Both the position numbers and the translations under genes were made by a program. Positions 43,778 to 58,818 of a stretch of DNA of 64,000 nt are shown piece by piece. Below the pieces are notes generated by a model. That model saw only the letters and a list, made by a program, of their open reading frames with translations, was not told the origin of the DNA and did not search any database. Source of the stretch: Rubripirellula obstinata (GTDB taxonomy: Bacteria; Planctomycetota; Planctomycetia; Pirellulales; Pirellulaceae); assembly GCF_001642955.1 (NCBI RefSeq), contig NZ_LWSK01000017.1, positions 1-64,000 of the forward strand, written 5' to 3'. Position 1 is the first letter of the stretch, and each line of letters opens with the position of its first letter.

Positions 43778-43853
43778 CGTATAACATCGCTGCAATCCGT
43801 CTAACGACACCATTCATCGTCTTTTGACACCAATCAACCTGCCAAACAAATTT

Positions 43854-45446
43854 ATGTCCGCGAAAAATATCCGAATCTACGACACGACCCTTCGCGATGG
43901 TTCGCAGGGCGAGGGCGTGAGTTTTTCACTTCAAGACAAGCTGAACATCGCGCGACGTTTGGCCGAAATCGGAATCGATTACGTCGAAGGCGGATACCCG
44001 CTTTCGAACGAGAAAGATGTTGCCTTCTTTGAACAGATTCGCAAGGACGATCTGGGCGACACAAAGATCTGTGCGTTCGGAATGACCCGGCGGCGAAGCA
44101 TGAAAGCCGCCGATGATCCGGGCATGAAAGCACTGGTTGCAGCGCAAACACCCTGCATCACTTTGGTCGGCAAGACTTGGGACTACCATGCCACCGATGT
44201 TTTGAATGTGACGCTGGATGAAAACCTTGCCATGATCGGTGAGAGCGCCGAATTCTTGGCCGGTCACTCGGAAGTCATCTACGATGCCGAACACTTCTTT
44301 GACGGTTTCAAAGCCAACCCGGACTACGCGATCGAGACGCTGAAATCGGCTGCGTCGGCGGGCGCAACATGTTTGGTGATGTGCGACACCAACGGCGGAA
44401 CCCTGCCCGAGGAAGTCGCAGCGATCACGGCAACAGCAATCGAAAAACTTGCTGACTACAATATCCAATTTGGAATCCATACTCACAACGACGGCGAATT
44501 AGCAGTTGCAAATTCCCTAGCCTCGGTCGACGCGGGTGCCTGCCAAGTCCAGGGAACGATCAACGGGATCGGTGAACGTTGCGGTAACGCCGACCTGATT
44601 TCGGTGATGGCAAACTTGGCGCTGAAAAAGAAAGACTACAGCGTTCTGGGTGGCCGTCCGCTGACGCACCTGACCGAGCTTAGTCGTTACGTCTACGAAA
44701 CGGCGAACTTGCAATGGCGTGGCGGGCAACCGTTTGTCGGGCAAAGTGCTTTTGCTCACAAAGGCGGCATGCATGTTCACGCGATCAACAAAGCCGCCAG
44801 CACCTACGAACACATCGATCCGGCGATGGTGGGCAATGAGCGACGTATCCTGGTCAGCGAATTGTCGGGCCGCAGCAACATCGTGGCGATCGCCAAGCAG
44901 CACAATATCGAAGATGATCGCGGCCTGATGGATAAGATTTTGGCCGAAGTCGTACGGCTAGAAAACCAAGGCTATCAGTACGAAAACGCAGGTGCTTCGT
45001 TTGACCTATTGGTTCGCAGGATCACCGAAACGTTCATGCCGCATTTTAATCCGATCAAGTATAGGATCGTGGCGGGTGACCGGGAAAGCGGCAGCGGAAA
45101 CGTGTTCGCCGAAGCAATCATCAAATTGGAAGTCGGCGAAAAGTTGTGGTTCGATGCCGCTGAAGGTCACGGCCCCGTCAATGCGCTGGATGCCGCACTT
45201 CGCAAGGCACTGATCGACAGCTATCCCTGCCTTAGTGAAATGCGGCTGATCGATTACAAAGTCCGAGTGGTCGATTCCAGCGCAGGCACGGCCGCATCGA
45301 TTCGCGTCAACATCGAAAGCAGCGACGCCAGCGAAACATGGGGCACGATCGGTGTCAGCGAAAACATCATCGAAGCCAGTTGGCAAGCGCTGGTCGATGC
45401 AGTCGAGTACAAACTGCACAAAGAAGAGATGCCGCTGGGCGGATGA
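43854..45446 (+). CDS. cimA: (R)-citramalate synthase
   Basis: Condenses pyruvate and acetyl-CoA to citramalate, the entry to threonine-independent isoleucine synthesis. ATG 43854 gives 530 residues; a TTG at 43824 is in frame but less suitable. The catalytic HMGL-like barrel starts with 'IRIYDTTLRDGSQGEGVSFSLQDKLNIARRL' and has the metal-binding 'FGIHTHNDGELAVANSLASV' plus 'VQGTINGIGERCGNADLI'. The C-terminal 130 residues are the LeuA-type regulatory domain. The citramalate subgroup is favoured over isopropylmalate or homocitrate synthase because of the 'TLRDGSQGEG' motif and the length. Confidence 0.88.
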   Translation: MSAKNIRIYDTTLRDGSQGEGVSFSLQDKLNIARRLAEIGIDYVEGGYPLSNEKDVAFFEQIRKDDLGDTKICAFGMTRRRSMKAADDPGMKALVAAQTPCITLVGKTWDYHATDVLNVTLDENLAMIGESAEFLAGHSEVIYDAEHFFDGFKANPDYAIETLKSAASAGATCLVMCDTNGGTLPEEVAAITATAIEKLADYNIQFGIHTHNDGELAVANSLASVDAGACQVQGTINGIGERCGNADLISVMANLALKKKDYSVLGGRPLTHLTELSRYVYETANLQWRGGQPFVGQSAFAHKGGMHVHAINKAASTYEHIDPAMVGNERRILVSELSGRSNIVAIAKQHNIEDDRGLMDKILAEVVRLENQGYQYENAGASFDLLVRRITETFMPHFNPIKYRIVAGDRESGSGNVFAEAIIKLEVGEKLWFDAAEGHGPVNALDAALRKALIDSYPCLSEMRLIDYKVRVVDSSAGTAASIRVNIESSDASETWGTIGVSENIIEASWQALVDAVEYKLHKEEMPLGG

Positions 45447-46868: not shown

Positions 46869-46998
46869 CGAACAAGGTCGCGATTGGGTAGCTCTGATAG
46901 GTCGTGTCGAACAATAACCCGCTTGTCGCTAAGATCTGTGCGGATTGACGATCAATTTAGCAAAGAATCTCGCCTTCGAATTACCGAAATCGCCTGCA

Positions 46999-49900
46999 AT
47001 GCCAACCACCAACGCTTCAAATTCTCAACCGTCTTCTGATCCTCAACCGATCGACGCCAACGAAATCCCCAACCGCTTTGATCACGCCGAAGCAGCGTCG
47101 CAGATTGCTGCGGCCTGGGATGCGGCCGGTTGCAGCCACGCGGAAGTCAATCCTGATAAGCCTCCGTTTTGCGTCGTTATTCCGCCGCCCAACGTTACCG
47201 GCGCGTTGCACCTCGGTCATGGCTTGAACAACACGCTGCAAGACATTGTGATTCGTACTAAACGGATGCAAGGTTTTGAAACGCTTTGGATGCCGGGGAC
47301 AGATCACGCAGGGATCGCGACGCAGGCAGTCGTGGAACGGCGTTTGAAAGAAGACGAAAACCTATCGCGTCATGATCTTGGCCGGGATGAATTGGTTAAG
47401 CGGATTTGGGAGTGGAAAGCTCAATACGAAACACGCATCATCGGCCAGTTGAAGCGGATGGGTTGCAGTTGTGATTGGCAGCGGCTTCGATTCACGCTGG
47501 ACGATACTTGCGCCGCCGCGGTTCGAGCGACCTTCTTTGATCTGTTCGGTCAGCGAATGATCTATCGCGGCAAGCGGTTGGTGAATTGGGACACGTTCCT
47601 GCAGACTGCCGTTAGCAACGACGAAGTCGAAAATGTGACTCAGAAAGGTCACTTCTGGCACTTCAGTTATCCCGTGATCGACGCCAAGCCCGGTGAACCG
47701 ACCTCGGTTGAAATCGCGACCACTCGGCCAGAAACCATGTTGGGCGACACGGCGGTTGCCGTTCATCCGAATCCTGAAAAAGCATTCGATAAAGTTGAAT
47801 CCGAACTGCGAGCGAAACTTGCGGACGCCAGCGACAAAGAAAAAGCCGACGTTGAAAAACAACTGGAACAACTCGCCGAGCGACGCACCAAGATGCTGCC
47901 GGGATTGATCACGCTGCGCGACATGGCCGCCGATGGCCGCATGTTGAAGCTGCCGCTGACCGACCGCGAAATCCCGTTGATCGCGGACGAATGGGCGAAG
48001 CCGGAACTCGGTTCGGGCTGCGTCAAGATAACGCCGGCGCACGACCCCAATGATTACGAAGTCGGTTTGCGACAAGACTTACCGATGATCAACATTCTTA
48101 ATACCGACGGTACGCTCAACGAAGAAGGCGGCAAGTACGCTGGCTTGAATATGAAGCAAGCTCGCAAGGCCGTCGTGGCCGATTTGGATGAACTGGATTT
48201 GTTGGGCGAAGTCGAGGATCGCGAAATCGAATTGCCGCACAGTGATCGCAGCAAAACGCCGATCGAACCTTTTTTGGCCGATCAGTGGTTCGTCAAAATG
48301 GACACGCTGGCCCAGTCCGCGATGGACGCCGTCAGCGATGAACGCGTGAAAATTTTTCCCGAGCGTTATCGTAAAGGTTACCTGGATTGGTTGGGTGAAA
48401 AACGCGACTGGCCCGTCAGCCGCCAATTGTGGTGGGGGCATCGCATTCCGATCTGGTCGGTGACGGGGATCGATGCGAAAGCGGCGAAGGATCTGGTTGC
48501 CAAGCTGCAAAAGTTGCCTGCCGCGACAACTGGCGAACTGAAAGAGCAGACCGAAACGCTGGACGATGGAACGATGGGTGTTTTTGTTTGCCTGCGAGGC
48601 GAAGACGCAGCCGCTCAAGCCGAAATCGAGTCACTCGGACTCGTTCAAGATCCCGATGTTCTGGACACGTGGTTCTCGTCGGCGCTTTGGCCGCACAGCA
48701 CGCTGGGCTGGCCCGAGAAAACGCCTGAACTGGACTACTTTTATCCGACCGCAACGCTGATCACGTCTCGCGATATCATCACGTTGTGGGTCGCTCGCAT
48801 GGTGTTGATGGGGCTGAACAATGTCGGCAAGATTCCGTTCGACCAAGTGTTCATCCACCCCAAGATTTTGGATGGGCTTGGCGAAACGATGTCCAAGTCC
48901 AAGGGCAACGGAGTCGATCCGAATGACGTGATCGACAAATTCGGTCCCGATGCGCTGCGTTACGGATTGGCCCGGATCGCGACCGACACGCAAGACGTTC
49001 GGATGCCGGTTCAATACGAATGCCCGCACTGCGGGAAGCTGATCGATCAAACGAAAAAGAATCGTTCGGCGAAAACTGTCGATTGCAAGTTCTGCAAAAA
49101 GACTTTTTCGACGCAGTGGGCCGAAAGCGAATCTGACAAAGCTCATTCGCGAGCACCCGTCGTGAGTGAACGTTTTGAGACGGCGCGTAACTTTGTCAAC
49201 AAGCTTTGGAATGCGTCTCGGTTCACGTTGATGAACATGGAAGGTTACGAAGCCAAACCGCTAGAGGTCGCATCGCTGCCGCTGGAAGATCGTTGGTTGC
49301 TCAGCCGATTGGCGACGGTGACCGATCAGGTCACCAAGGGCATCGAAACCTATAAGTTCGCGGAAGCTTCGCGAATTCTCTATGACTTTGCCTGGGATGA
49401 ATTCTGCAGCTTTTACGTCGAGATCGCCAAACCGCGTTCGGCGGACGAAGCAACACGCGCGACGACTCAAGTCGTCATGGCGCACGGTTTGGACACGCTG
49501 TTGCGGCTTTTGCATCCGATGATGCCTTTTGTCACCGAATCGATTTGGAGTTACGTGGGTAAGGCTGCACCGGTACGAGGCGTGCCGGTACCAGCGGAGT
49601 CTTCGTCGATGTTGATGACGGCCGCTTGGCCCCAAGCCGATGCCAGTCATCATGACCCGGCGATCGAGCGACAGTTTGCAGAGTTTCAAGAAGTTGTCGG
49701 TGCGATTCGTTCGATCCGAGCGAGCCAAAATATCGCGCCGCGTGAAATCGTGCCCGTGGCGATTCGCACCAGCGAGTCTTCGCAAGAACTGCTTTCACCC
49801 ATGAAGACTTCGCTAGAAAGCTTGGCAAACTGCGAAGTGATCACGCTGGGCCCGGATGCAGTCGCATTTGAAACCGACGCACCATTGTCGCTTTCATCGA

Positions 49901-50151
49901 TCGACATTGACGTTCATGTGGACCTGGAAAAGTTCATCGACGTCGAAGCTGAATTGGCCAGGCTTGAAAAGCTGAAGGATCAAGTGATCAAACAAATCAC
50001 TGGCAAGGAATCCAAGCTGAACAACGAAAACTTTGTCGCTCGGGCACCCGAAGAAGTCGTCGCCAAAGAGCGAGAGAGCTTAGCCGAGTTGAAACAGCAA
50101 CTCGCCAGCGTCAAGGGCGACATCGAACGACTGCAAGCCAAGTCAGGCTGA
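46999..50151 (+). CDS. valS: Valyl-tRNA synthetase with inserted zinc-ribbon
   Basis: Charges tRNA-Val. ATG 46999 gives 1,050 residues. Class I signatures are 'PPPNVTGALHLGHGLNN' (HIGH box) and 'ETMSKSKGNG' (KMSKS box, near residue 630). The editing domain has 'TTRPETMLGDTAVAVHP', and the C-terminus is a coiled-coil tRNA-binding arm ('ELARLEKLKDQVIKQI'). After the KMSKS box there is an extra Cys4 segment ('YECPHCGKLID', 'VDCKFCKKTF', Cys at about 675, 678, 696, 699) that looks like a zinc-ribbon and is not typical of ValS. The last 15 codons are part of a 250-bp sequence repeated at 54784. Confidence 0.95.
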   Translation: MPTTNASNSQPSSDPQPIDANEIPNRFDHAEAASQIAAAWDAAGCSHAEVNPDKPPFCVVIPPPNVTGALHLGHGLNNTLQDIVIRTKRMQGFETLWMPGTDHAGIATQAVVERRLKEDENLSRHDLGRDELVKRIWEWKAQYETRIIGQLKRMGCSCDWQRLRFTLDDTCAAAVRATFFDLFGQRMIYRGKRLVNWDTFLQTAVSNDEVENVTQKGHFWHFSYPVIDAKPGEPTSVEIATTRPETMLGDTAVAVHPNPEKAFDKVESELRAKLADASDKEKADVEKQLEQLAERRTKMLPGLITLRDMAADGRMLKLPLTDREIPLIADEWAKPELGSGCVKITPAHDPNDYEVGLRQDLPMINILNTDGTLNEEGGKYAGLNMKQARKAVVADLDELDLLGEVEDREIELPHSDRSKTPIEPFLADQWFVKMDTLAQSAMDAVSDERVKIFPERYRKGYLDWLGEKRDWPVSRQLWWGHRIPIWSVTGIDAKAAKDLVAKLQKLPAATTGELKEQTETLDDGTMGVFVCLRGEDAAAQAEIESLGLVQDPDVLDTWFSSALWPHSTLGWPEKTPELDYFYPTATLITSRDIITLWVARMVLMGLNNVGKIPFDQVFIHPKILDGLGETMSKSKGNGVDPNDVIDKFGPDALRYGLARIATDTQDVRMPVQYECPHCGKLIDQTKKNRSAKTVDCKFCKKTFSTQWAESESDKAHSRAPVVSERFETARNFVNKLWNASRFTLMNMEGYEAKPLEVASLPLEDRWLLSRLATVTDQVTKGIETYKFAEASRILYDFAWDEFCSFYVEIAKPRSADEATRATTQVVMAHGLDTLLRLLHPMMPFVTESIWSYVGKAAPVRGVPVPAESSSMLMTAAWPQADASHHDPAIERQFAEFQEVVGAIRSIRASQNIAPREIVPVAIRTSESSQELLSPMKTSLESLANCEVITLGPDAVAFETDAPLSLSSIDIDVHVDLEKFIDVEAELARLEKLKDQVIKQITGKESKLNNENFVARAPEEVVAKERESLAELKQQLASVKGDIERLQAKSG

Positions 50152-50354
50152 TGATGCTGTAAGTAAATGACCCACGGATGGCTTTCGCAGACCCACGGAT
50201 TTTGCGCGGACGATTGTCGGTCACAAAATCCGTGGGTCTGCGAAAGCCATCCGTGGGGCTCTCCAATTCCGCCCCAACAGGTCAGGTCAACCGACTGACG
50301 GCCTGAACGCCATCAAAGGGCCGGAAAAAGGTGCCGACACCTTAGATCCGACCC
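50105..50354. repeat. 250-bp direct repeat, copy 1 (3' end of valS plus hairpin)
   Basis: This block is over 95% identical to 54784-55034 in the same orientation. It contains the last 15 codons and stop of valS, a perfect 34-bp hairpin (50171-50204 with 50224-50257) and a short tail ending 'TTAGATCCGACCCA'. The hairpin lacks a T-run. After it, 50355-50821 holds no recognisable gene. Confidence 0.93.
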
Positions 50355-50821
50355 ATTGAAGAGAATGGGGCCGGAGCTTTTTGTACAAACTGCAGAGTGT
50401 CCGGCTTGCCCATCCAGCGACCTGGGCTCTTGTCGTCGTTTGTGGCCACTACCTGAGACCGGAAAACCGAGCCTGACTTCACGAGCGATTCCCAAAGTGC
50501 CGCTTCCGTTCCTGTCGGCTGGAAGAATGCCTGCTAGGGTTCAATTCTAGCTTCAGATGGATGCCCGAAGCCGGATCGGATCACGCAAGTGGCTCTCCAG
50601 CGGCGACCGTACGTTTGGAGCTTGTTACTGCCTTCGGTCTTATCAAACACCTTTTTTGACCGGCTCGTCGCAAATCCACCACTGGCCGGGACCGTCGCCA
50701 ATTTGCCACCACCCAACATGATTTGAAAGCTAGTCGAAAAGCAGGCAAAAATCGGAGGAGGCTGCTTCAGCGGGTTTCAACCGACGCTAAACTAACCGTC
50801 AAGGAAAGGATCTTTTCGGCG

Positions 50822-51610
50822 ATGGTCACCCGTGACCGGCCCATTGATCTTTTAAATGTGACGTATCAGGTAGATCGCCAGGCAGTTGGCAAGTATTGGT
50901 TCGGCAATATGCCAAAGTCTTTTAATCATTCGCTTTTAGTCGATCATCAGAAAATTCGTTTGCTCCGCCAATCGCTTGGCTGGACTCAAGAGTATGCCTC
51001 CGTTCGCGCGGGATATTCGACTCGGCTGATTCGCAAACTGGAATGCGGTGGAAAAGTCCGACCGGAGACTTTGGTGAATGTGTTGCAGTGCTACCAGCAG
51101 GAGATCGGCAACGACGATTGGACTGTCAGTGAATTTCTGCTGCAGGATGAGGCGTCTGGCGAGAAAGATTCGCATTCAAGCGAGTTGGATCAACAGCGAC
51201 AAATCCTGCGAATGCAGCAGTGGTACGCTACCATTTACAACGACCGGGAAATTCACCGAGTCGCAGAATTCATTGCTCCCGAGATGACCTACCAACACGG
51301 GGAAGGTGACGTTCATGTCGGCATCGATTTCATTCGCGAAATCGCTTCAGCGGTTTTAACCGGCTTTAACCCGCTGACGTTTGAGTTTCCGCACAGTTTT
51401 TATAGCGACGGTTACGTCCACACCTTCTGGAAATTAAGAATGAAGCATGTGGGCGAGTTCAGCGGAGTGGAAGCGACCGGAAAATGGGTAACGTGCCGCG
51501 GGAATTCGCGAGTAAGAATCGTCGACGACAAGATGGTCGACGCGGAGGACAACTGGGACGTGTACGACGTCATTCGGCAGCTTCAAGGCGAATCGCCGAA
51601 GTGGTACTAG
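50822..51610 (+). CDS. HTH (XRE-type) protein with NTF2/SnoaL-like C-terminal domain (paralogue A)
   Basis: ATG 50822 is preceded by AAGGAAAGGA at good spacing and gives 262 residues; the frame opens at a TTG (50723). Residues about 42-92 form a helix-turn-helix domain ('RLLRQSLGWTQEYASVRAGYSTRLIRKLECG', then 'RPETLVNVLQCYQQE'). The C-terminal half is an NTF2/SnoaL-like fold ('EIHRVAEFIAPEMTYQHGEGDVHVGIDFIREI', 'GEFSGVEATGKWVTCRGNSRVRIVDDKM'), a domain that often binds small molecules. This suggests a ligand-responsive regulator. It is a paralogue of the gene at 53995-54684, and both flank a PEP-CTERM gene. An unusual domain pair; no ligand can be named. Confidence 0.72.
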   Translation: MVTRDRPIDLLNVTYQVDRQAVGKYWFGNMPKSFNHSLLVDHQKIRLLRQSLGWTQEYASVRAGYSTRLIRKLECGGKVRPETLVNVLQCYQQEIGNDDWTVSEFLLQDEASGEKDSHSSELDQQRQILRMQQWYATIYNDREIHRVAEFIAPEMTYQHGEGDVHVGIDFIREIASAVLTGFNPLTFEFPHSFYSDGYVHTFWKLRMKHVGEFSGVEATGKWVTCRGNSRVRIVDDKMVDAEDNWDVYDVIRQLQGESPKWY

Positions 51611-51642
51611 TAGTCCATGTCAGCTCAATCTTCGGTTAGGAG

Positions 51643-51708
51643 GTAGCGGAAGTCGCGTAGACTTTCGGCGTCCCCCTCGTAGCCGAAACTCTTGGCGAGT
51701 TCCGCTAC
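51643..51708. repeat. Dispersed palindrome (family B)
   Basis: Imperfect inverted arms at 51643-51668 and 51683-51708 ('GTAGCGGAAG..ACTTTCGG' and 'CCGAAACTCTTGGCGAGTTC..'). A related copy lies at 62421-62484. The rest of the gap 51611-52048 shows no gene and no clear promoter. Confidence 0.7.
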
Positions 51709-52048
51709 CCGAAAATTGAGGTGACGCGGAATACTAGTGTTCTGGGACAGCTTCGTTCTAGGGTAGTGGATCTTTGCAAGTCGGATTCATTGGCTAATGA
51801 ACCGAACGTGAACGGCGGCGAGAACTGCAAGATTCACTGGTCAAACAAAATCGGGCAGCCAGTGGTCATTCGTGCATTGTCGTGGCCCAAACGGATCAAG
51901 ATTTCTGGCGAGCGACGCTGCTCTTGAAACTTTTCATCAACGTGCCGCAAACGTTCCTGTCTGCGCGAATTAGCCCGAACAATACTAGCCCACCTCGTTT
52001 GTGGGCATCGGTCTGCCTGCGTATCTTCTTTGCTACAGGTATTTAAGA

Positions 52049-53779
52049 ATGAATGTTTCCTTGGTGATCGTCACGCGACGAGTCGCGATACTTCTGTGTT
52101 TTAGTGTGTGTTTCTGGGTACAATCGCCTGCGGAAGCCCAGTCGTCGTTTGGTCGTTCAGTCCCCAACGGAAATTGGTTCGATAACAACTGGATCATCAA
52201 CGGCGTGAACTTGGGACGACCTGGACAGTTCAACACCGATAACAACGTGGTCATCGGGGATGCTTCGGCGACGTCCGGAGCCGTTGAGCCCGCCACGGTG
52301 ACGCTCAATAGCGCCGCGGTGCAGATCGAATCGATCAAGATTGGCGGTGCCGGGCCGAATGCGACTGGAAACTTGAATATCTCCGCTGCAGGCAACCTGA
52401 CGGTCAATCGAGATGTGGAGGTTCACAACGGAAATCTGAACCTTGATGGTGGATCGTTGCAGGCCAATCGGGTCGTCGCTGACGGCGCGGCAGCGAACGT
52501 GACAATCAATGGGAACCTGGATGCTGACGTCTTGCGAGCGCAAGCGGGTGGATCAGTTTCGATTGCCGGTCCCATAGCAAATTCAGATCTTTCCATTAGC
52601 GGATCAGATGGAAGTGACGTGCAAGTCAATGCAACCACAGCGGCCAGAGTTTTATCTCTGCGAAACAATTCATCTGCTACCCTAAACGCATCTTCTACCT
52701 TCGAACAAATTAACACGGTTGATAGCCGTTTAGAGATTGATGCTGACACGGTTACCACCGGGAATGCATCAGGACCATCGATCGTGTTTGTCAACGGAGG
52801 TCAGTTTGAACATCAGTCGGGAACGATCCAGACTGACAGACTGGAATTCTCGCGAAGCCAAGCATCGGGAACCGCGGTTGAGGTGCAACGGCTTGGTGGG
52901 AATTTTGATGTTGAAGACTTGACTGTCGAAGGCAGTACCGTGAACTTGAATCTATCGGATCAAATCTCTAACCGCATTTCCGTCACCGATGGCGGGGTCA
53001 TCAATGCGGCCAGCTCGCTAGACTTGACCGGCGGCGTGACTATTAGCAACGCTACCCTGAATTTGGCGGGCGATTTGGTGGCCGAATCGCTTGCTTTGGC
53101 GGGACCTGCCGCAATCCTGGGGCGAACCGCCGACGATCACTTCACCGTCAGTTCACTATCTGTTTCTAGCATCGCAAACTACACGTTGCAGGAGACGGAT
53201 ACGGTCTTGGATAGCCTCGACGTCAGTGATTCAACCTTCACAACGAGCCAAGTGTTCTCTGGGCTTGGCAACCTTGCCATCGTTGAAGCTGGCAATGCCG
53301 CATTTTTGGACTCTGCGGACTTTGAGCTTGCCTCCGTCTTTGGGGGATCTGTCGCGTCTTTTCAAGCTGCATCAGACATCGACAACTTGCTGCTTTTCGG
53401 TGGTAGCGAAATCGAGGTAGTTCAGGCCGATGGCGAATCCGTCGGGCTCACGCTGGGTTCGATCCAAACCTTTCCCGGTGGCGGAATCTTTGATTTGCAG
53501 TTTGACTCGGTGACCGGTTTGATCGGCGAGCTTGATTGGGCGATGCGCGTCGCTGGCGATCAACAGTCCGTTCTACAAGGATATCTGGACAGCGGAACGA
53601 TCATCACGTCCGGTGCCGACGGGCAATCCATTTCAGCGATTTACGATGTCGACTTGTATGGAGACTTCACGCACATTGGGTTTGTTACGGCATCGCCGGT
53701 TCCAGAGCCGAGCAGTTTTGCGGCGATGCTCTTGATTGGGTGTGCAGTCGCGGGACGCCGTAAATGTTGTATCGCGTGA
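52049..53779 (+). CDS. PEP-CTERM surface protein with beta-helix-like repeats
   Basis: ATG 52049 gives 576 residues with a signal peptide ('VAILLCFSVCFWVQSPAEAQ'). The body is Asn/Asp/Ser-rich with many short strands ('NLNISAAGNLTVNRDVEVHNGNLNLDGGSLQ', 'IASIQ'-like turns), as in autotransporter-like right-handed beta-helices. The C-terminus is a clear PEP-CTERM sorting signal: 'VPEPSSFAAMLLIGCAVAGRRK', i.e. VPEP, a hydrophobic helix, and an Arg-rich end. Such proteins are processed by an exosortase; none is seen in this window. It lies between two paralogous HTH-NTF2 genes, both in the same orientation, which may regulate it. Confidence 0.82.
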   Translation: MNVSLVIVTRRVAILLCFSVCFWVQSPAEAQSSFGRSVPNGNWFDNNWIINGVNLGRPGQFNTDNNVVIGDASATSGAVEPATVTLNSAAVQIESIKIGGAGPNATGNLNISAAGNLTVNRDVEVHNGNLNLDGGSLQANRVVADGAAANVTINGNLDADVLRAQAGGSVSIAGPIANSDLSISGSDGSDVQVNATTAARVLSLRNNSSATLNASSTFEQINTVDSRLEIDADTVTTGNASGPSIVFVNGGQFEHQSGTIQTDRLEFSRSQASGTAVEVQRLGGNFDVEDLTVEGSTVNLNLSDQISNRISVTDGGVINAASSLDLTGGVTISNATLNLAGDLVAESLALAGPAAILGRTADDHFTVSSLSVSSIANYTLQETDTVLDSLDVSDSTFTTSQVFSGLGNLAIVEAGNAAFLDSADFELASVFGGSVASFQAASDIDNLLLFGGSEIEVVQADGESVGLTLGSIQTFPGGGIFDLQFDSVTGLIGELDWAMRVAGDQQSVLQGYLDSGTIITSGADGQSISAIYDVDLYGDFTHIGFVTASPVPEPSSFAAMLLIGCAVAGRRKCCIA

Positions 53780-53948
53780 TTGCGACCTTGAATCCAATCA
53801 GTTAACCAACCACGCCACCAATGGCGCATATCGACCTTGCTTTTGCTCGAAGCAATGAAGAATCATTGGACTTCCATAAATAAAAGTGTACCGTTGGAGG
53901 GGGTGCAGTTATGCTCACGCAACTCGCCAAAGCGAGCAGGATCAGGTT

Positions 53949-53960
53949 CGATCATGATCG
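53949..53960. promoter_or_regulatory. 12-bp perfect palindrome ahead of regulator B
   Basis: CGATCATGATCG lies 35 bases upstream of the GTG start of the HTH-NTF2 gene. A small hairpin (CTCGC/GCGAG) is 15 bases further upstream. The palindrome could be the operator of the regulator itself; there is no direct evidence. Confidence 0.35.
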
Positions 53961-53994
53961 TGCTTTTCTGATTGGATATTGAGTTGGAGAATCC

Positions 53995-54684
53995 GTGTTG
54001 TCGCTGAGCATTAATCCCAATCCCCACACGGCTTCTAAGCTCCGTGCGGCTCTCGGCTGGTCTCAGGCAAACGCCGCAAAACAGGCTGGCTACAGTGAGC
54101 GAGTCATTCGAAAGATCGAAGCTGGTCAAAGTGTTCGGCCCCAAACGCTGATTGATGTTCTGCAGTGCTACCAGTGTGCCTTGAAGGAGTTGGGGATCGA
54201 TCTCGCGAAGTTTGCGGGAAACGAAGAAGTTCCCGGCAACGCCAAAGACCCCATCAAGAAACAAGGTTTCACTGACAGTCAACGTCGAATGATCGATTAC
54301 TACCAGCAAGTTTTCGTACAGCGGCGGCCAGAGGTGATTCCAAAATTCATCCATAACGATATTCGATTTATCAGCGAAGGTGTAACCAGAACTGGTATCG
54401 AGATTGTTCAAGAGCGAGCGAATGCGTTTCTGAACGGATTCAATCCCATTGATATGGCGATCGTCAGCATGGTCGGTGATGGAGCAACGGTTTCGGCATC
54501 GTGGATCGCCACGATGACTCATGTGGGGCCTTTCTTGGGTGTGGATGGTACTGGCCGAACTATCCACGTTCAGGCGGTGTGTGTAGCGACTTTTCAAGAC
54601 GAACTGTGCATTGAGGCTCAAGATCAAATCGACGTGGATGATATTCATCAACAGATCAGTGGGCGTGAGCGACGCACCATTTAG
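53995..54684 (+). CDS. HTH (XRE-type) protein with NTF2/SnoaL-like C-terminal domain (paralogue B)
   Basis: GTG 53995 has GGAGA seven bases upstream and gives 229 residues. The HTH domain is at about residues 14-66 ('KLRAALGWSQANAAKQAGYSERVIRKIEAGQSVRPQTL', 'VLQCYQCALKELG'). The C-terminal part (about 90-220) is NTF2/SnoaL-like ('VIPKFIHNDIRFISEGVTRTGIEIVQERANAFLNGFNP', 'VGPFLGVDGTGRTIHVQAVCVATF'). Gene A has the same two-domain order and shares 'RLIRKLE/RVIRKIE' and 'VLQCYQ'. It lies 215 bp after the PEP-CTERM gene and 100 bp before the second 250-bp repeat. Confidence 0.75.
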   Translation: MLSLSINPNPHTASKLRAALGWSQANAAKQAGYSERVIRKIEAGQSVRPQTLIDVLQCYQCALKELGIDLAKFAGNEEVPGNAKDPIKKQGFTDSQRRMIDYYQQVFVQRRPEVIPKFIHNDIRFISEGVTRTGIEIVQERANAFLNGFNPIDMAIVSMVGDGATVSASWIATMTHVGPFLGVDGTGRTIHVQAVCVATFQDELCIEAQDQIDVDDIHQQISGRERRTI

Positions 54685-54783
54685 ACCTAGGAAAAGGGGA
54701 ACGGGGCAATTCATCGGTTTTAAAAGCTGCTGCGAGTTTCAATTTCAAAAACTCCCCCGTGCCATTTTTTCCGTGCTCGTGCC

Positions 54784-54830
54784 CCAGCGTCAAGGGAGAC
54801 ATCGAACGACTGCAAGCCAAGTCAGGCTGA
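54784..54830 (+). pseudogene. valS: Remnant of the valS 3' end
   Basis: The last 14 codons and stop of valS ('SVKGDIERLQAKSG') are repeated here in frame with one silent change (GGC to GGA). No upstream valS sequence is present, so it is a fragment carried by the 250-bp direct repeat. The fragment is too short to be expressed as a gene. Confidence 0.85.
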
Positions 54831-55034
54831 TGATGCTGTAAGTAAATGACCCACGGATGGCTTTCGCAGACCCACGGATTTTGCGCGGACGATTGTCGGT
54901 CACAAAATCCGTGGGTCTGCGAAAGCCATCCGTGGGGCTCTCCAATTCCGCCCCAACAGGTCAGGTCAACCGACTGACGGCCTGAACGCCGTCAAAGAAC
55001 CGGAAAAGGTGTCCGACACCTTAGATCCGACCCA
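54784..55034. repeat. 250-bp direct repeat, copy 2
   Basis: Second copy of 50105-50354, 4,679 bp downstream, with a few single-base changes near its end. It contains the same perfect 34-bp hairpin (54850-54883 with 54903-54936). The gap 54685-55088 contains only this repeat and the FAAL 3' flank. Confidence 0.93.
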
Positions 55035-55088: not shown

Positions 55089-57209
55089 TTACAAGTTCGA
55101 CGGAGTTGTGCCGATGATTTCATCGACGATGTACTCGCTTAGTCGAGACACTGTGGGATAGTTCCATGCGACGATCGGAGTCAATTCTGCACCGGACCAG
55201 TCTTCGATCTCGCCACTCATTTCAACGGCGGTCATCGAATCGAGTCCGTAGTCAGAAAACGGTTTGTCGAGGTTGATTTCCGATGGATCGATACCCGCTC
55301 GGGCGACCAACCAATTGGTCATCCAGTTTTCGGTTGCCGCTTGCAACGAAGGTCGATGATCGTCGGTCGCCGGCGATGGTACTTCGGGTAATTCCAACGG
55401 CACTTGCGTGGACGCGGAACAACGCTCGTAGCGATGTTTGGTTTTAATTTCATCAGCATCAAACATTTCTCGGCAACGTAACCGGCGGATCTTGCCGCTG
55501 CTGGTAACGGGCACCACTGCTTGCCGTGTCAACAGAACGTACAGCGGATCAACATCGTGAACGTCAATCACCGCTCGCCTGATCGAGCGAACAATCGTAT
55601 CAAATTCGGTTTCCTTGGCACCTCGCGGTAGCTCAGCAACAATCGCAAGCGCCTCGCCCCTTGGTGCATCGACGGGAAATGCCGCCGATCGTCCGCTGTC
55701 TTTTCCGATTGACAAGCGAACGGTCGTTTCGATGTCTTGCGGAAACAGATTTCGGCCTCGCAAAATGATCACGTCTTTGACGCGGCCAGTGACATACAGA
55801 TGGCCATCATGGATAAAACCCAAGTCGCCGGTGCGGCAAAAACCGTCACGTCCGTCGGTCAATCGAGCATTGAATTGCGATCGGTTGGTATCCTCACGCT
55901 GCCAATAACCATCGGTCACGCCCGCACCGCGAAGCCAGATTTCGCCAATCGATCCAGGTTCGACTTCGGCAAAGGAATCGAGCTCGGCTGATTTTAAATC
56001 AACAATGATTAGCTCGGTATCATGCGCCGCGGTTCCGCACGAGACTAACTTCTGAAATTGAGACCCTCGCTGATTCTCGTCAACGATCAGAGGCTTTGAC
56101 GCACCCAGCGATTCTCGATCCACCTTGATATACGTTGGTGACTGCGGACCGTCGCCACCGGCGGCAAGCAACGTTGCTTCGGCCAATCCGTAGCACGGAT
56201 AGAAGGCACGATCCGAAAACCCGTTCGCCGAAAAGCGGGCTGCGAAGTCTTGCAAGGTTCGCGGTTGAATCGGTTCAGCACCGCAGAAAGCTGTGTTCCA
56301 ACAACTGAGGTCCAATTGATCGGTTTGTTGAGGCGAAATTCGATCGATGCAGAGTTGATATGCAAAATTTGGGGCACCACTGATCGCGGCCTGTTTGCGG
56401 CTGATCAATTCCAACCACCGGACTGGCCGCTGCAAGAATGCACCGGGACTCATCAAGGTTGTTTCCATGCCCAGATACAGCGGTTCTAAGATCCCGCCGA
56501 TCAATCCCATGTCATGGAAAAACGGCAGCCAAAACACTGCTCGATCAACGCTGGTCGCATCATCGGGTTGCATTTTGATATGAAAGCCGCGATGAATCGA
56601 AGCCAGGTTCGACATCAAATTTCGATGCCGAATTTTCACGCCTTTGGGTTCACTGGTGCTGCCACTGGTGTACTGCAAAAACGCTAACTGGTCGGGATCA
56701 GCTTTCAGTGTTTGATGGTCAATCCAAACGGAATCGTCAACGTTTGGTTGTTGGGTCGAAATCCTTGTTACCGATTGGGCGGCTTCGCAAAGCTTCGATG
56801 GGTCAATCGATTCAATCGTTGCGGTGTCGGCTAAGATCGCCGCGGGATCACAGTCACGCGCTGCTGAATCGAGTCGAGGAATTTCACGACCGCGTTTTGG
56901 GTAGCATGTCGGAACTGGAATCCAACCAGCGATCTGGCAACCAAAAAACGCAGCGATGAATTCGATGCCGGGGGAATACAACAACAGCGCTCGCGGTTGT
57001 TCATTGGCATCACCGTGATTGTCGTTGCTGATCGAATGAAGTTGATGAGCGACCGCGCAAGAACGCAGCCAAAGTTCGCGGTACGTCCAAGAAATTTCCT
57101 CACCGGATTCATCCCAAAAACTGATCGCAGAACGATGCCCATGTCGCAACGCTCTGTCGCCGATCATTTGTGGCATCGTGGCCGCGGAAGGTTGATCGGT
57201 TTGAGGCAT
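55089..57209 (-). CDS. Fatty-acyl-AMP ligase with C-terminal carrier (PP-binding) domain
   Basis: ATG 57209 gives 706 residues; a longer frame reaches 57638 but overlaps the gene upstream. The adenylation domain shows 'LAFLQYTSGSTSEPKGVKIRHRNLM', 'FWLPFFHDMGLIGGILEPLYLG', 'YPCYGLAEATLLAAGG' and 'FCRTGDLGFIHDGHLYVTGRVKDVIILRGRN', the pattern of FAAL/FadD32-like enzymes that make acyl-AMP. The last 80 residues are an acyl-carrier domain with 'SDYGLDSMTAVE' (phosphopantetheine Ser658). FAALs hand fatty acids to polyketide or other megasynthases. No synthase is in this window, so the acceptor is unknown. Confidence 0.88.
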   Translation of the reverse strand: MPQTDQPSAATMPQMIGDRALRHGHRSAISFWDESGEEISWTYRELWLRSCAVAHQLHSISNDNHGDANEQPRALLLYSPGIEFIAAFFGCQIAGWIPVPTCYPKRGREIPRLDSAARDCDPAAILADTATIESIDPSKLCEAAQSVTRISTQQPNVDDSVWIDHQTLKADPDQLAFLQYTSGSTSEPKGVKIRHRNLMSNLASIHRGFHIKMQPDDATSVDRAVFWLPFFHDMGLIGGILEPLYLGMETTLMSPGAFLQRPVRWLELISRKQAAISGAPNFAYQLCIDRISPQQTDQLDLSCWNTAFCGAEPIQPRTLQDFAARFSANGFSDRAFYPCYGLAEATLLAAGGDGPQSPTYIKVDRESLGASKPLIVDENQRGSQFQKLVSCGTAAHDTELIIVDLKSAELDSFAEVEPGSIGEIWLRGAGVTDGYWQREDTNRSQFNARLTDGRDGFCRTGDLGFIHDGHLYVTGRVKDVIILRGRNLFPQDIETTVRLSIGKDSGRSAAFPVDAPRGEALAIVAELPRGAKETEFDTIVRSIRRAVIDVHDVDPLYVLLTRQAVVPVTSSGKIRRLRCREMFDADEIKTKHRYERCSASTQVPLELPEVPSPATDDHRPSLQAATENWMTNWLVARAGIDPSEINLDKPFSDYGLDSMTAVEMSGEIEDWSGAELTPIVAWNYPTVSRLSEYIVDEIIGTTPSNL

Positions 57210-57271
57210 TGTTGGATAGAGGATCGACGGCGGAGCAGTTGAGTGTTTGAATGGAAAGACGAGAAACCGAG

Positions 57272-57796
57272 TTACCAGGAAGGTCCAACCCAGTTTCGTG
57301 CAGGCGGGTAATAGGATTGAGCCGGTGCGTATCGCGAACGCGTCGGCGCACTGTAAGCCGGCGCGCCATAAGCCGGCGCACTGGGGTAGGAATAAACCGG
57401 CGAAGTTGGTGCGCGGTAGGAATTCCCGGACCAAGCCGGACGCTGGGCGGAGTACACAGGATTTGACCGAATGGTTGTGGATTGGGGAGCCAATGCTTGG
57501 CCGCCAGTCGTGCCGCGATAGTAGTTTCGGCGAACCGAGTTTCCGTAGAAGTGTAGCGGTCGATACGGCCGTTGCTCGATCGGCATCGATTTGAGTTGTT
57601 CTCGATATTGGCCCGTCGCGATAATGGTCGGCGACCATCCGGGATCCTGAGCCGTCGCTTGCTGGACCGACGCGGGGGAGACGCTGATCAATAAAGTGAT
57701 CAAGACGGAAGTAGCGACTAGATATCGGTGACCGAGAATTATGTTTTGCATGACGTTAATCGAACAAGCTTGTTTTGTAAGTGTTTTGATAGACAT
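57272..57796 (-). CDS. Exported Pro/Tyr/Ala-rich protein of unknown function
   Basis: The 174-residue product starts at ATG 57796 or 57751. Either gives a signal peptide ('YLVATSVLITLLISVSPASV', cleavage near 'QATAQD'). The mature C-terminal half is low-complexity with repeats of 'SYPSAPAYGAPAYSAPT' type. This is a common style for planctomycete envelope proteins of unknown role. It lies upstream of the FAAL gene on the same strand. I do not recognise the family. Confidence 0.58.
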   Translation of the reverse strand: MSIKTLTKQACSINVMQNIILGHRYLVATSVLITLLISVSPASVQQATAQDPGWSPTIIATGQYREQLKSMPIEQRPYRPLHFYGNSVRRNYYRGTTGGQALAPQSTTIRSNPVYSAQRPAWSGNSYRAPTSPVYSYPSAPAYGAPAYSAPTRSRYAPAQSYYPPARNWVGPSW

Positions 57797-58095
57797 TGTT
57801 TGCGGCTAAAGTTGAGCTTCATTTGAACGCTCTCCGCCGGTTAGTTTCATCAAAATCTGCTGAAATTCCATGCCTGAACCGCTGGAACTCCATTTGTTTC
57901 AGCAATGACGGTTTTAATGGCATGTCTTCCACGGGGTTGACCGTTCCTGCCACTGGCAGTCGGAATCGAGTAAACTACGGCCTCGAATTGGCAATCTTGC
58001 AAACGCCGGTGATTGAATCACTTTTTTTGCAGGGCCAAGGTGACCAGAGATAATGTTATCGAACCGCGCGCCATTACGCACCCTTGCATCGCGAT

Positions 58096-58818
58096 ATGAA
58101 CAAAAAACCGTACAGTAAGAATCCGTTGGGCAGCAAATCCAAGGCGGGTGGAATCGCGGTCATCGTTTTGGCCGGTATCTATTCGCTGGTCGCTCCGCAA
58201 CTGAACACAAGGTTCGGCTGGGATCTACCCGCGATCTCTGCAGACGCCCAAGGCAACGTTCGACTGGCTGAAAAAGATTCCAGTAGAACCGGTGAACCCA
58301 GTTCTGGTGATCGCAGCTCGACTGGTAAAACGTCAGGTACTTATCAGCCAAGTGATTCCTCGAAGACAAAATCGCCTGCAAAATCAAAGCCTTCCGACGG
58401 CAAAGAAATCGAAGGGCAGACCGATGACTTGCTGCATGGGCTGTTAAAAGAAGTCAGCAGCAATCGGTACCAATCGCCTGAGGGATTGCTCTACACGCCC
58501 GGCAGTGCCGAAGGTCACCGGTTGAATCACCTGGAACGGCACACCAAGGACATGCCATCGCGTCCCGGCAGCCACGGAGTGTTCGATGGCGAAATGGCAG
58601 GAGCTTTAAAGACGATCGACCGAGCTTATCAGCGAGCGAAAAAGAATCAAAAAACCACCAAGAAAGTCGACGATGGACGGACGATTTACACCGTCGATAT
58701 GGGTGGACGCGTCGGCTATGTCGGCGGCAGAGATGGTAAACGCCGGCGGAATCCAATGGCTCGCCGGGTACGCATCGTTCTCGATGGCAACCGAGTCATC
58801 ACGGCCTACCCGATGTGA
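58096..58818 (+). CDS. Exported protein with RNase-toxin-like C-terminal domain
   Basis: ATG 58096 gives 240 residues. A membrane anchor or signal ('GGIAVIVLAGIYSLVAPQL') is followed by a Ser/Lys/Pro-rich linker to about residue 125. The last 110 residues have 'GHRLNHLERHTKDMPSRPGSHGVF', 'ALKTIDRAYQRAKKN' and 'RVRIVLDGNRVITAYPM'. The order (His-rich N-terminus, helix, C-terminal strand ending 'VITAYP') resembles bacterial RNase A-like or BECR-fold toxin domains of contact-dependent systems. Toxin activity is not established, and no immunity gene is obvious. It may be a housekeeping relative of that fold. Confidence 0.5.
   Translation: MNKKPYSKNPLGSKSKAGGIAVIVLAGIYSLVAPQLNTRFGWDLPAISADAQGNVRLAEKDSSRTGEPSSGDRSSTGKTSGTYQPSDSSKTKSPAKSKPSDGKEIEGQTDDLLHGLLKEVSSNRYQSPEGLLYTPGSAEGHRLNHLERHTKDMPSRPGSHGVFDGEMAGALKTIDRAYQRAKKNQKTTKKVDDGRTIYTVDMGGRVGYVGGRDGKRRRNPMARRVRIVLDGNRVITAYPM

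Follow-up and report, generated by a model that had tools for sequence, protein, structure and literature searches.

Direct repeats carrying the valS gene end around a 4.4-kb segment in Rubripirellula obstinata, and recurrent copies of gene tails with palindromes in the same genome

The valS locus

We analysed a stretch of 64,000 nucleotides of Rubripirellula obstinata (the window; contig NZ_LWSK01000017.1, positions 1 to 64,000) for a segment bounded by two direct repeats behind valS, the gene of valyl-tRNA synthetase. The genome holding the window is a 6.58-Mb draft of 307 contigs; where labels are needed it is called G000, its contigs carry C-numbers, congener genomes are labelled in the manner of G001–G025, and individual loci carry L-numbers. 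The intact resident valS open reading frame (ORF) lies at 46945–50151 on the forward strand, and 19 of 21 congeners match its C-terminal part at 68–74% identity. The first repeat, R1 (50105–50356, forward strand), is continuous with valS; the second, R2 (54784–55034, forward strand), opens with a copy of the final 47 nt of the valS ORF (14 codons, the stop codon and 2 nt). They align at 97.6% identity over 252 columns, 4679 bp apart from start to start. In both, 19 nt separate the valS tail from a perfect inverted repeat (34-nt arms, 19-nt loop), after which come a further 99 nt, and the right end lies close to a GGTGCCGACACC / GGTGTCCGACACC motif. An earlier note on this DNA had described near-identical direct repeats at the valS end, each with the final valS codons, the stop codon and a perfect 34-bp hairpin, and this description is borne out. 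The palindromes are named H1 (50171–50257; inverted repeat, arm search and RNA fold) and H2 (54850–54936; inverted repeat); the predicted RNA fold of the hairpin has an energy of -78.5 kcal/mol, with a z score of -10.1 against 200 shuffles. The two repeats differ at several positions and their flanks are unlike. The earlier note had also considered a general genome-wide repeat unrelated to valS: the hairpin part is indeed found genome-wide, but the search of the genome against itself places the full 250-bp repeat at two places only, the remaining matches being to the hairpin region.

The interval of about 4.4 kb between R1 and R2 holds three genes and a dispersed repeat, all on the forward strand. 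The first gene encodes a helix-turn-helix (HTH)–SnoaL protein of 262 aa (HTH1, 50822–51610). A 132-bp palindromic repeat, resembling a miniature inverted-repeat transposable element, overlaps its stop codon (51606–51737) and has 39 or more other matches in the genome at 95–100% identity, over full or part length, among the 40 of 175 candidates scored. It is followed by the gene of an exported PEP-CTERM-like protein of 576 aa (PEP, 52049–53779) and by a second HTH–SnoaL gene of 229 aa (HTH2, 53995–54684). A junction stretch (54688–54783, forward strand), with a motif termed E (GGAAAAGGGGANCGGGG, found by motif count) at 54690, precedes the truncated valS tail copy. The HTH proteins are NTF2-like paralogues, as the earlier note had proposed, with Pfam SnoaL matches of 2e-19 and 2e-15 and HTH_3 in both (below the cut-off in the first); they are 36% identical to each other. 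Relatives of HTH1 occur sporadically, in 27 of 196 genomes of the order, and are absent from the three other congeners in the sample. The PEP-CTERM label of the earlier note finds no support in Pfam or NCBIfam, neither of which gave a match; it comes from reading the sequence, in which a VPEP...RRK tail is visible. Concerning recombinases, Pfam found none in seven proteins scanned between 45.5 and 58.8 kb, and the claim that the enclosed DNA has no integrase holds for its three proteins scanned. The right-hand neighbour is a FAAL-like AMP-ligase with an acyl carrier protein domain (55089–57638, reverse strand; Pfam AMP-binding and PP-binding), and citramalate synthase (43824–45446) lies upstream of valS.

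A palindrome family private to this genome

The valS hairpin belongs to a family, here called H. A 16-nt H arm, with up to one mismatch, has 82 matches in G000 (a reversed control pattern has 1) and 0 or 1 in each of the 21 other genomes of the genus; H is thus a palindrome family private to G000 among the genomes compared. With two mismatches the arms resolve into 37 paired hairpins and 11 single arms, and, counted from the site table, an ORF of 90 aa or more ends no more than 50 bp before 21 of the 37 paired sites.

Two sites depart from the usual form. At C2:73666–74577 (L066) about 880 bp separate the two H arms, and a GxxExxY gene (TIGR04256) lies between them; the flanking ORFs are, by eye, pyrG-like and kdsB-like. 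H may be a short form of such a gene-bearing palindromic element. At C199:25451–28485 (L062), two sister H palindromes (97.8% identical) stand around ORFs of 233 and 679 aa, behind a 145-aa ORF, possibly an insertion without a tail copy.

Tail copies elsewhere in the genome

The H regions of G000 (481 kb, covering all 82 arm matches) were scanned for local direct repeats in which an ORF of 200 aa or more ends. Seven loci were found, five of which are true tail copies: valS, nadE, yifB/comM, a radical-SAM gene and an amidohydrolase gene (families assigned by Pfam, valS by its own sequence). The other two were rejected, C301:15383 as a tandem repeat at an ORF end without a palindrome and C242:57183 as hairpins alone. 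At the four genes besides valS, the 3′ tail and H are copied one to three times downstream with orientation kept, in three cases around accessory DNA, and the feature common to all five loci is H behind the stop codon. The nadE copy is 849 bp long and lies 10.8 kb downstream; the insert encodes a 2606-aa dockerin/Calx-beta protein and has a Y1_Tnp match containing one stop. yifB has two copies, one of 233 bp and one shorter, the first after a 323-aa ORF and the second after a pair of HTH/DUF433 and PIN-like genes. The radical-SAM insert of about 7 kb carries genes for a dockerin protein of 1777 aa and, just under the Pfam cut-off, a Y1-like protein; there are three copies of about 320 bp, in three tandem units of about 408 bp beyond the insert. 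The amidohydrolase locus (C247) consists of four tandem 195-bp units including the gene's own (three copies), with no cargo. The duplicated tails measure 47, 672, 167, 32, 127 and about 85 nt across loci.

Ordinary tandem duplication or an assembly artefact would be conceivable for a draft in 307 contigs, and REP clusters, i.e. clusters of repetitive extragenic palindromic sequences, are described as tandemly repeated with flanking DNA in the portions available of PMC3116915 and PMC3733652. We consider this most improbable: R1 and R2 are not identical, their flanks differ, unrelated DNA of 4.4 kb stands between them, and the same architecture is found on other contigs. Retrocopying of an mRNA 3′ end, which would have a fixed end at the hairpin, was dropped, as R continues for 99 bp beyond the hairpin and the radical-SAM units do not stop there either.

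Control scans covered 646 kb of G000 without H arms, 95 kb around 132-bp repeats and genes of REP-associated tyrosine transposases (RAYT), and six more 20-kb stretches (14 accompanying contigs of 1.0–1.5 kb being left out). The H-free 646 kb gave four loci: those at C242:106868 and C155 look like real tail copies with GTAGGCC-type palindromes, that on C30 is a cassette-like array, and that at C242:93106 apparently consists of palindrome matches only. The 95 kb gave two loci with tails of 39 and 26 nt (C244 and C306), and the six stretches gave two tail copies, both on C250 and without H. Tail copies are thus not confined to H. Lowering the ORF limit to 120 aa added many more rows, chiefly from cassette-like contigs. 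Applied to relatives, the same scan found no tail copies, neither in the congener loci (419 kb) nor in the named loci (373 kb; the two sets overlap in their sources, and loci below 1.5 kb were skipped).

Further arrangements were seen in these scans. Tandem gene tails with GTAGGCC-type palindromes, independent of H, lie at C242:106868–107377, C155:1–484 and C306:15905–16571. On C250 (177–421, 8526–8836 and 12712–13366; L391) tail copies of two different genes lie next to each other, at distances of about 12.5 and 4.5 kb from the genes they derive from, with E and a further motif, S (described below), at the edges. On C30, C70, C130 and C140 (L312, L315, L320 and L321), repeats of about 100 bp stand between small ORFs at a spacing of about 0.5–4 kb and resemble an integron cassette array.

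Differences between genes and their copies

The nadE copy differs from the gene at 34 of 672 coding bases, distributed over codon positions 1/2/3 as 6/0/28; 29 codons differ synonymously and 3 nonsynonymously. Of the 177 columns of the adjoining noncoding stretch, 21 differ. Neutral decay beside a constrained gene would be expected to give about 59% nonsynonymous changes, which the nadE data reject (P = 6e-9). Also, the copy is no further than the gene from four outgroups beyond 3–4 nt; to G020, for instance, the distances of copy and gene are 190 and 186 nt, or 43 and 45 aa. The three radical-SAM copies have 0/0/1, 0/0/5 and 0/1/7 differences (1, 5 and 8 sites, rising with distance from the gene), of which 13 of 14 fall at position 3. 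For the amidohydrolase copies the counts are 0/1/4, 0/0/3 and 0/0/4 (5, 3 and 4 sites; 11 of 12 at position 3), for yifB 0/0/0 and 0/0/1, and for valS 0/0/1. The C242 array has the same lean to synonymous sites. Copies within one array are not independent of each other. Since the nadE difference is almost wholly synonymous and the short tails differ mostly at position 3, the copies look like displaced working alleles. Judged by their substitutions, both nadE tails are shown to have diverged as working alleles.

Comparison with related genomes

HTH1, PEP, HTH2 and FAAL were found beside valS in none of 19 congener downstream loci (0.4–13.8 kb each) and in none of 23 named loci, the nearest of which by valS (70–72% identical) are from Rhodopirellula, Rubripirellula and relatives. 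Citramalate synthase precedes valS in 22 of the 23 named relatives, so the locus is orthologous. Downstream, 13 of the 19 congener loci have a conserved ORF of 306–311 aa, and in G003, G012 and G001 a 388-aa ORF follows, the G000 counterpart of which is on C242. FAAL has matches of 60–63% in five congeners, elsewhere than at valS, and in three of the five the gene at 58084–58818 adjoins it. The valS end is therefore a breakpoint private to G000 among the genomes compared. The earlier note had suggested looking between valS and FAAL in relatives for empty sites with a single repeat copy; none was found in the 19 and 23 loci and, as different genes follow valS there, no one-repeat site is recognisable. 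The other outcome it had named, the whole interval unchanged in relatives, is not seen either: no relative compared has the interval.

Searched with the radical-SAM protein, 22 genomes gave four places in G000 and one in each of the 21 others. In G020, an orthologue of the 137-aa gene at C301:14915 lies about 50 bp behind the radical-SAM gene, followed by orthologues of the genes at C301:16298, 17765 (prfA by sequence reading), 18907 and 20606. G001 shares the first two neighbours with G020, so the empty site is present in two of ten relatives; in the other eight the 137-aa gene was not seen and the 16298 gene is at most about 1.3 kb from the radical-SAM gene. In G000, the native neighbour comes only after about 8 kb and three additional tails. 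It is thus the distal tail that adjoins this neighbour, and DNA was added behind the gene: the radical-SAM case is an insertion relative to an empty site.

In the nadE protein search, G000 gave the gene and the tail, 17 other genomes one place each, and G002 nothing, while the matches in G004, G010 and G022 are fragments of a single gene; the downstream genes of G000 are at nadE in none of ten relatives. With yifB, G000 gave the gene plus a C-terminal tail; G006, G007 and G025 have second matches too, but none of these is a C-terminal tail. None of the yifB insert or neighbour genes was found within the up to 1.5 kb downstream in the relatives examined, apart from a weak match of a 116-aa ORF to L364, inside the yifB region.

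Motifs at the edges of the copies

Several truncated edges of tail copies abut motifs of RAYT-type (Y1) elements. Three edge motifs were counted in 1.34 Mb of G000: S (GGTGTCAGGTACC) occurs 12 times, E twice and U six times, and 12 of the 20 occurrences are within 120 bp of a listed tail-unit edge. The two E occurrences are 78 and 6 bp from edges of gene-tail copies. S is inverted around the RAYT gene on C237 and is also found at the edges of the nadE unit and of one C250 unit; a one-letter variant flanks a Y1 gene of G020 on both sides (L222). None of the three motifs occurs in the 419 and 373 kb of relatives' loci.

A unit of spacer, radical-SAM tail and H is also found at C239, beside a RAYT gene, and at C1, in both cases away from the radical-SAM gene and with no cargo. 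The U motif ends 6 nt before tails t2 and t3 on C301, 8 nt before the tail at C239 and, by eye, 6 nt before that at C1, though the tails begin at different positions of the gene. At C239, H lies 44 bp behind the RAYT ORF, on one side only. A claim of microhomology at the edges was dropped, as gene and copy alone cannot reveal it.

Interpretation

Our best reading, to which we give an even chance, is that the valS segment entered by recombination with related DNA, without an integrase and with the gene tail restored, palindromic and RAYT-type elements at gene ends having seeded the event. Palindromic elements (H and the GTAGGCC-type families) would settle behind stop codons, the position in which they are observed. 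RAYT/Y1-type element ends, which stand at the edges of several tail copies, may then help to form tail–H units that can be copied or moved. DNA of a related strain with such a unit would integrate by homology in the gene tail, and the other join would be illegitimate, next to a RAYT-type motif, giving the order tail–H, cargo, tail–H. At valS the incoming DNA would have carried or recreated tail and H, R1 being the tail in use and R2 the displaced one, and the direct repeats would permit later loss by RecA-type recombination. For valS, the homology and loss steps are proposed by analogy, and insertion at valS itself is deduced from the sister loci. The earlier note had offered entry at the gene end with the end restored: four other genes, one empty site and the nadE allele favour this by analogy, while valS has no empty site.

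Several observations weigh against this reading. The survey started from H sites, and tail copies also accompany other palindromes. The codon test has too little to work on in the valS tail (47 nt, 1 difference), and the radical-SAM and amidohydrolase tails (9 codons synonymous versus 4 not, and 9 versus 3) are both less clean in this respect than nadE. Later allelic replacement of the resident gene could also yield synonymous divergence. The segment carries the native 132-bp repeat, and its G+C content of 0.52–0.53 is nearly that of its surroundings (0.53–0.56) and gives no clear sign of foreign composition. The S, E and U motifs were picked after the edges had been viewed, so their enrichment is not a test, the exceptions being three S occurrences that flank Y1 genes on C237 and the one-letter variant on both sides of a Y1 gene in G020. 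The neighbourhood downstream of valS differs in relatives, which would also fit rearrangement instead of insertion. Lastly, the C250 copies, which have no H, differ from their genes by 2/3/3 (5 of 8 codons nonsynonymous) and 1/0/0; with synonymous bias lacking there, plain local copying seems to happen too.

These C250 copies, with their neutral differences and S and E motifs at the edges, favour a local duplicative hop, in which a unit of valS tail, H and 99 bp with RAYT-type ends was copied 4.7 kb downstream, so that the enclosed genes would not be cargo. The cargo-free moved units at C239 and C1, the cargo-free tandem copies at C247 and the GGTGTCCGACACC-type motif by the right edge of R fit such a hop as well. 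The duplication that the earlier note had named as its second option is in this form possible at valS, as local copying plus rearrangement, and the C250 copies do look local. We nevertheless regard a hop, the main rival to our reading, as a doubtful explanation of the valS segment: the radical-SAM case is an insertion against an empty site, the nadE copy is an allele that evolved under protein constraint (the radical-SAM and amidohydrolase copies leaning likewise), and HTH1 relatives are sporadic across the order.

H and the RAYT-type ends may together constitute a class of non-autonomous mobile unit in which the 3′ tail of a host gene is taken up and serves as a homology arm, a reading that we think rather unlikely. 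If so, accessory DNA would enter exactly behind the gene in strains sharing that tail, by a tail-restoring insertion that needs no integrase, and fossil tails would record successive allele exchanges.

The recurrence at several housekeeping genes suggests that DNA can be added at the end of a gene while the gene itself stays intact. Islands at gene ends are usually attributed to integrases. If insertion by recombination with related DNA is the right reading, small palindromes serve planctomycetes as landing pads where genes are gained, and a displaced tail that differs from its gene only synonymously becomes a mark by which such events can be tested for in the sequence of any genome, whether an integrase is present or not.

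Relation to known systems

The e14 prophage at icd has a 163-bp icd′ copy and, as far as the available part of PMC6379469 goes, the resident gene there too keeps a working 3′ end while the displaced tail lies beyond the insert. Unlike e14, the present loci show no integrase among the scanned insert proteins, five host genes, variable tail depth and a palindrome at each gene. Integrative and mobilizable elements (IMEs) all encode integrases and target housekeeping genes, according to the portion available of a review of IMEs and cis-mobilizable elements (CIMEs; PMC5704250). Their arrays, as that portion presents them, resemble the yifB locus in having serial accessory segments, each bounded by repeats of the gene end, and the housekeeping targets are shared; they differ from our loci, where no integrase was found, repeats reach 849 bp and there is no fixed core. 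At valS and the four other loci there are direct repeats, one of them taking in the end of the target gene. An integrase or a remnant of one was not found in the main insert proteins by Pfam, a search that left some small ORFs and the rest of the genome outside; the radical-SAM and nadE inserts do have Y1-type genes, but these do not count as integrases. A remnant of an IME, CIME or satellite at the gene 3′ end, with its integrase lost or acting in trans, would account for the gene-end targeting, the restored tail and the displaced copy, in which it resembles e14/icd (PMC6379469) and CIME accretion (PMC5704250) as the available parts describe them. We hold it to be decidedly unlikely: no recombinase is present among the insert proteins scanned (three at valS, three at yifB, two at the radical-SAM gene, one of them Y1-like, and two at nadE), there are five different target genes, and the duplicated tails vary in length with no single core. 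No common short attachment (att) core was found, the left edges differing by gene and depth. H alone as an integrase att site was dropped, as tails upstream of H are also duplicated and tail copies occur with other palindromes or without H.

REP sequences and REPINs are short palindromes downstream of coding regions, in tandem clusters and with RAYT genes nearby, in the sections available of PMC3116915 and PMC3733652; the palindromes behind genes, the tandem clusters with flanks and the nearby RAYT genes seen here are like those so described. H is likewise a many-copy extragenic palindrome, but it differs in arms of up to 34 nt and in the GTAG/CGTC tag, which was not seen on the H ends inspected by eye (they read ..CCACGG / CCGTGG..). 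The units here also differ in bearing protein-coding tails and surrounding kilobase cargo. The palindromes at the C242, C306 and C155 tail copies begin GTAGGCC.

In homology-facilitated illegitimate recombination, or Campbell-type integration of transformed DNA, one homologous and one illegitimate join would produce the order tail–cargo–tail. The present loci, for which such a mechanism is proposed, differ in their recurrence at palindromes with RAYT-type motifs. Our literature search surfaced no paper on planctomycete gene-tail copies with palindromes, which is not proof of absence. The parts are known, namely REP-like palindromes, Y1 elements and displaced gene tails as at e14/icd; what looks new is their recurrent combination around cargo, with no integrase among the proteins scanned.

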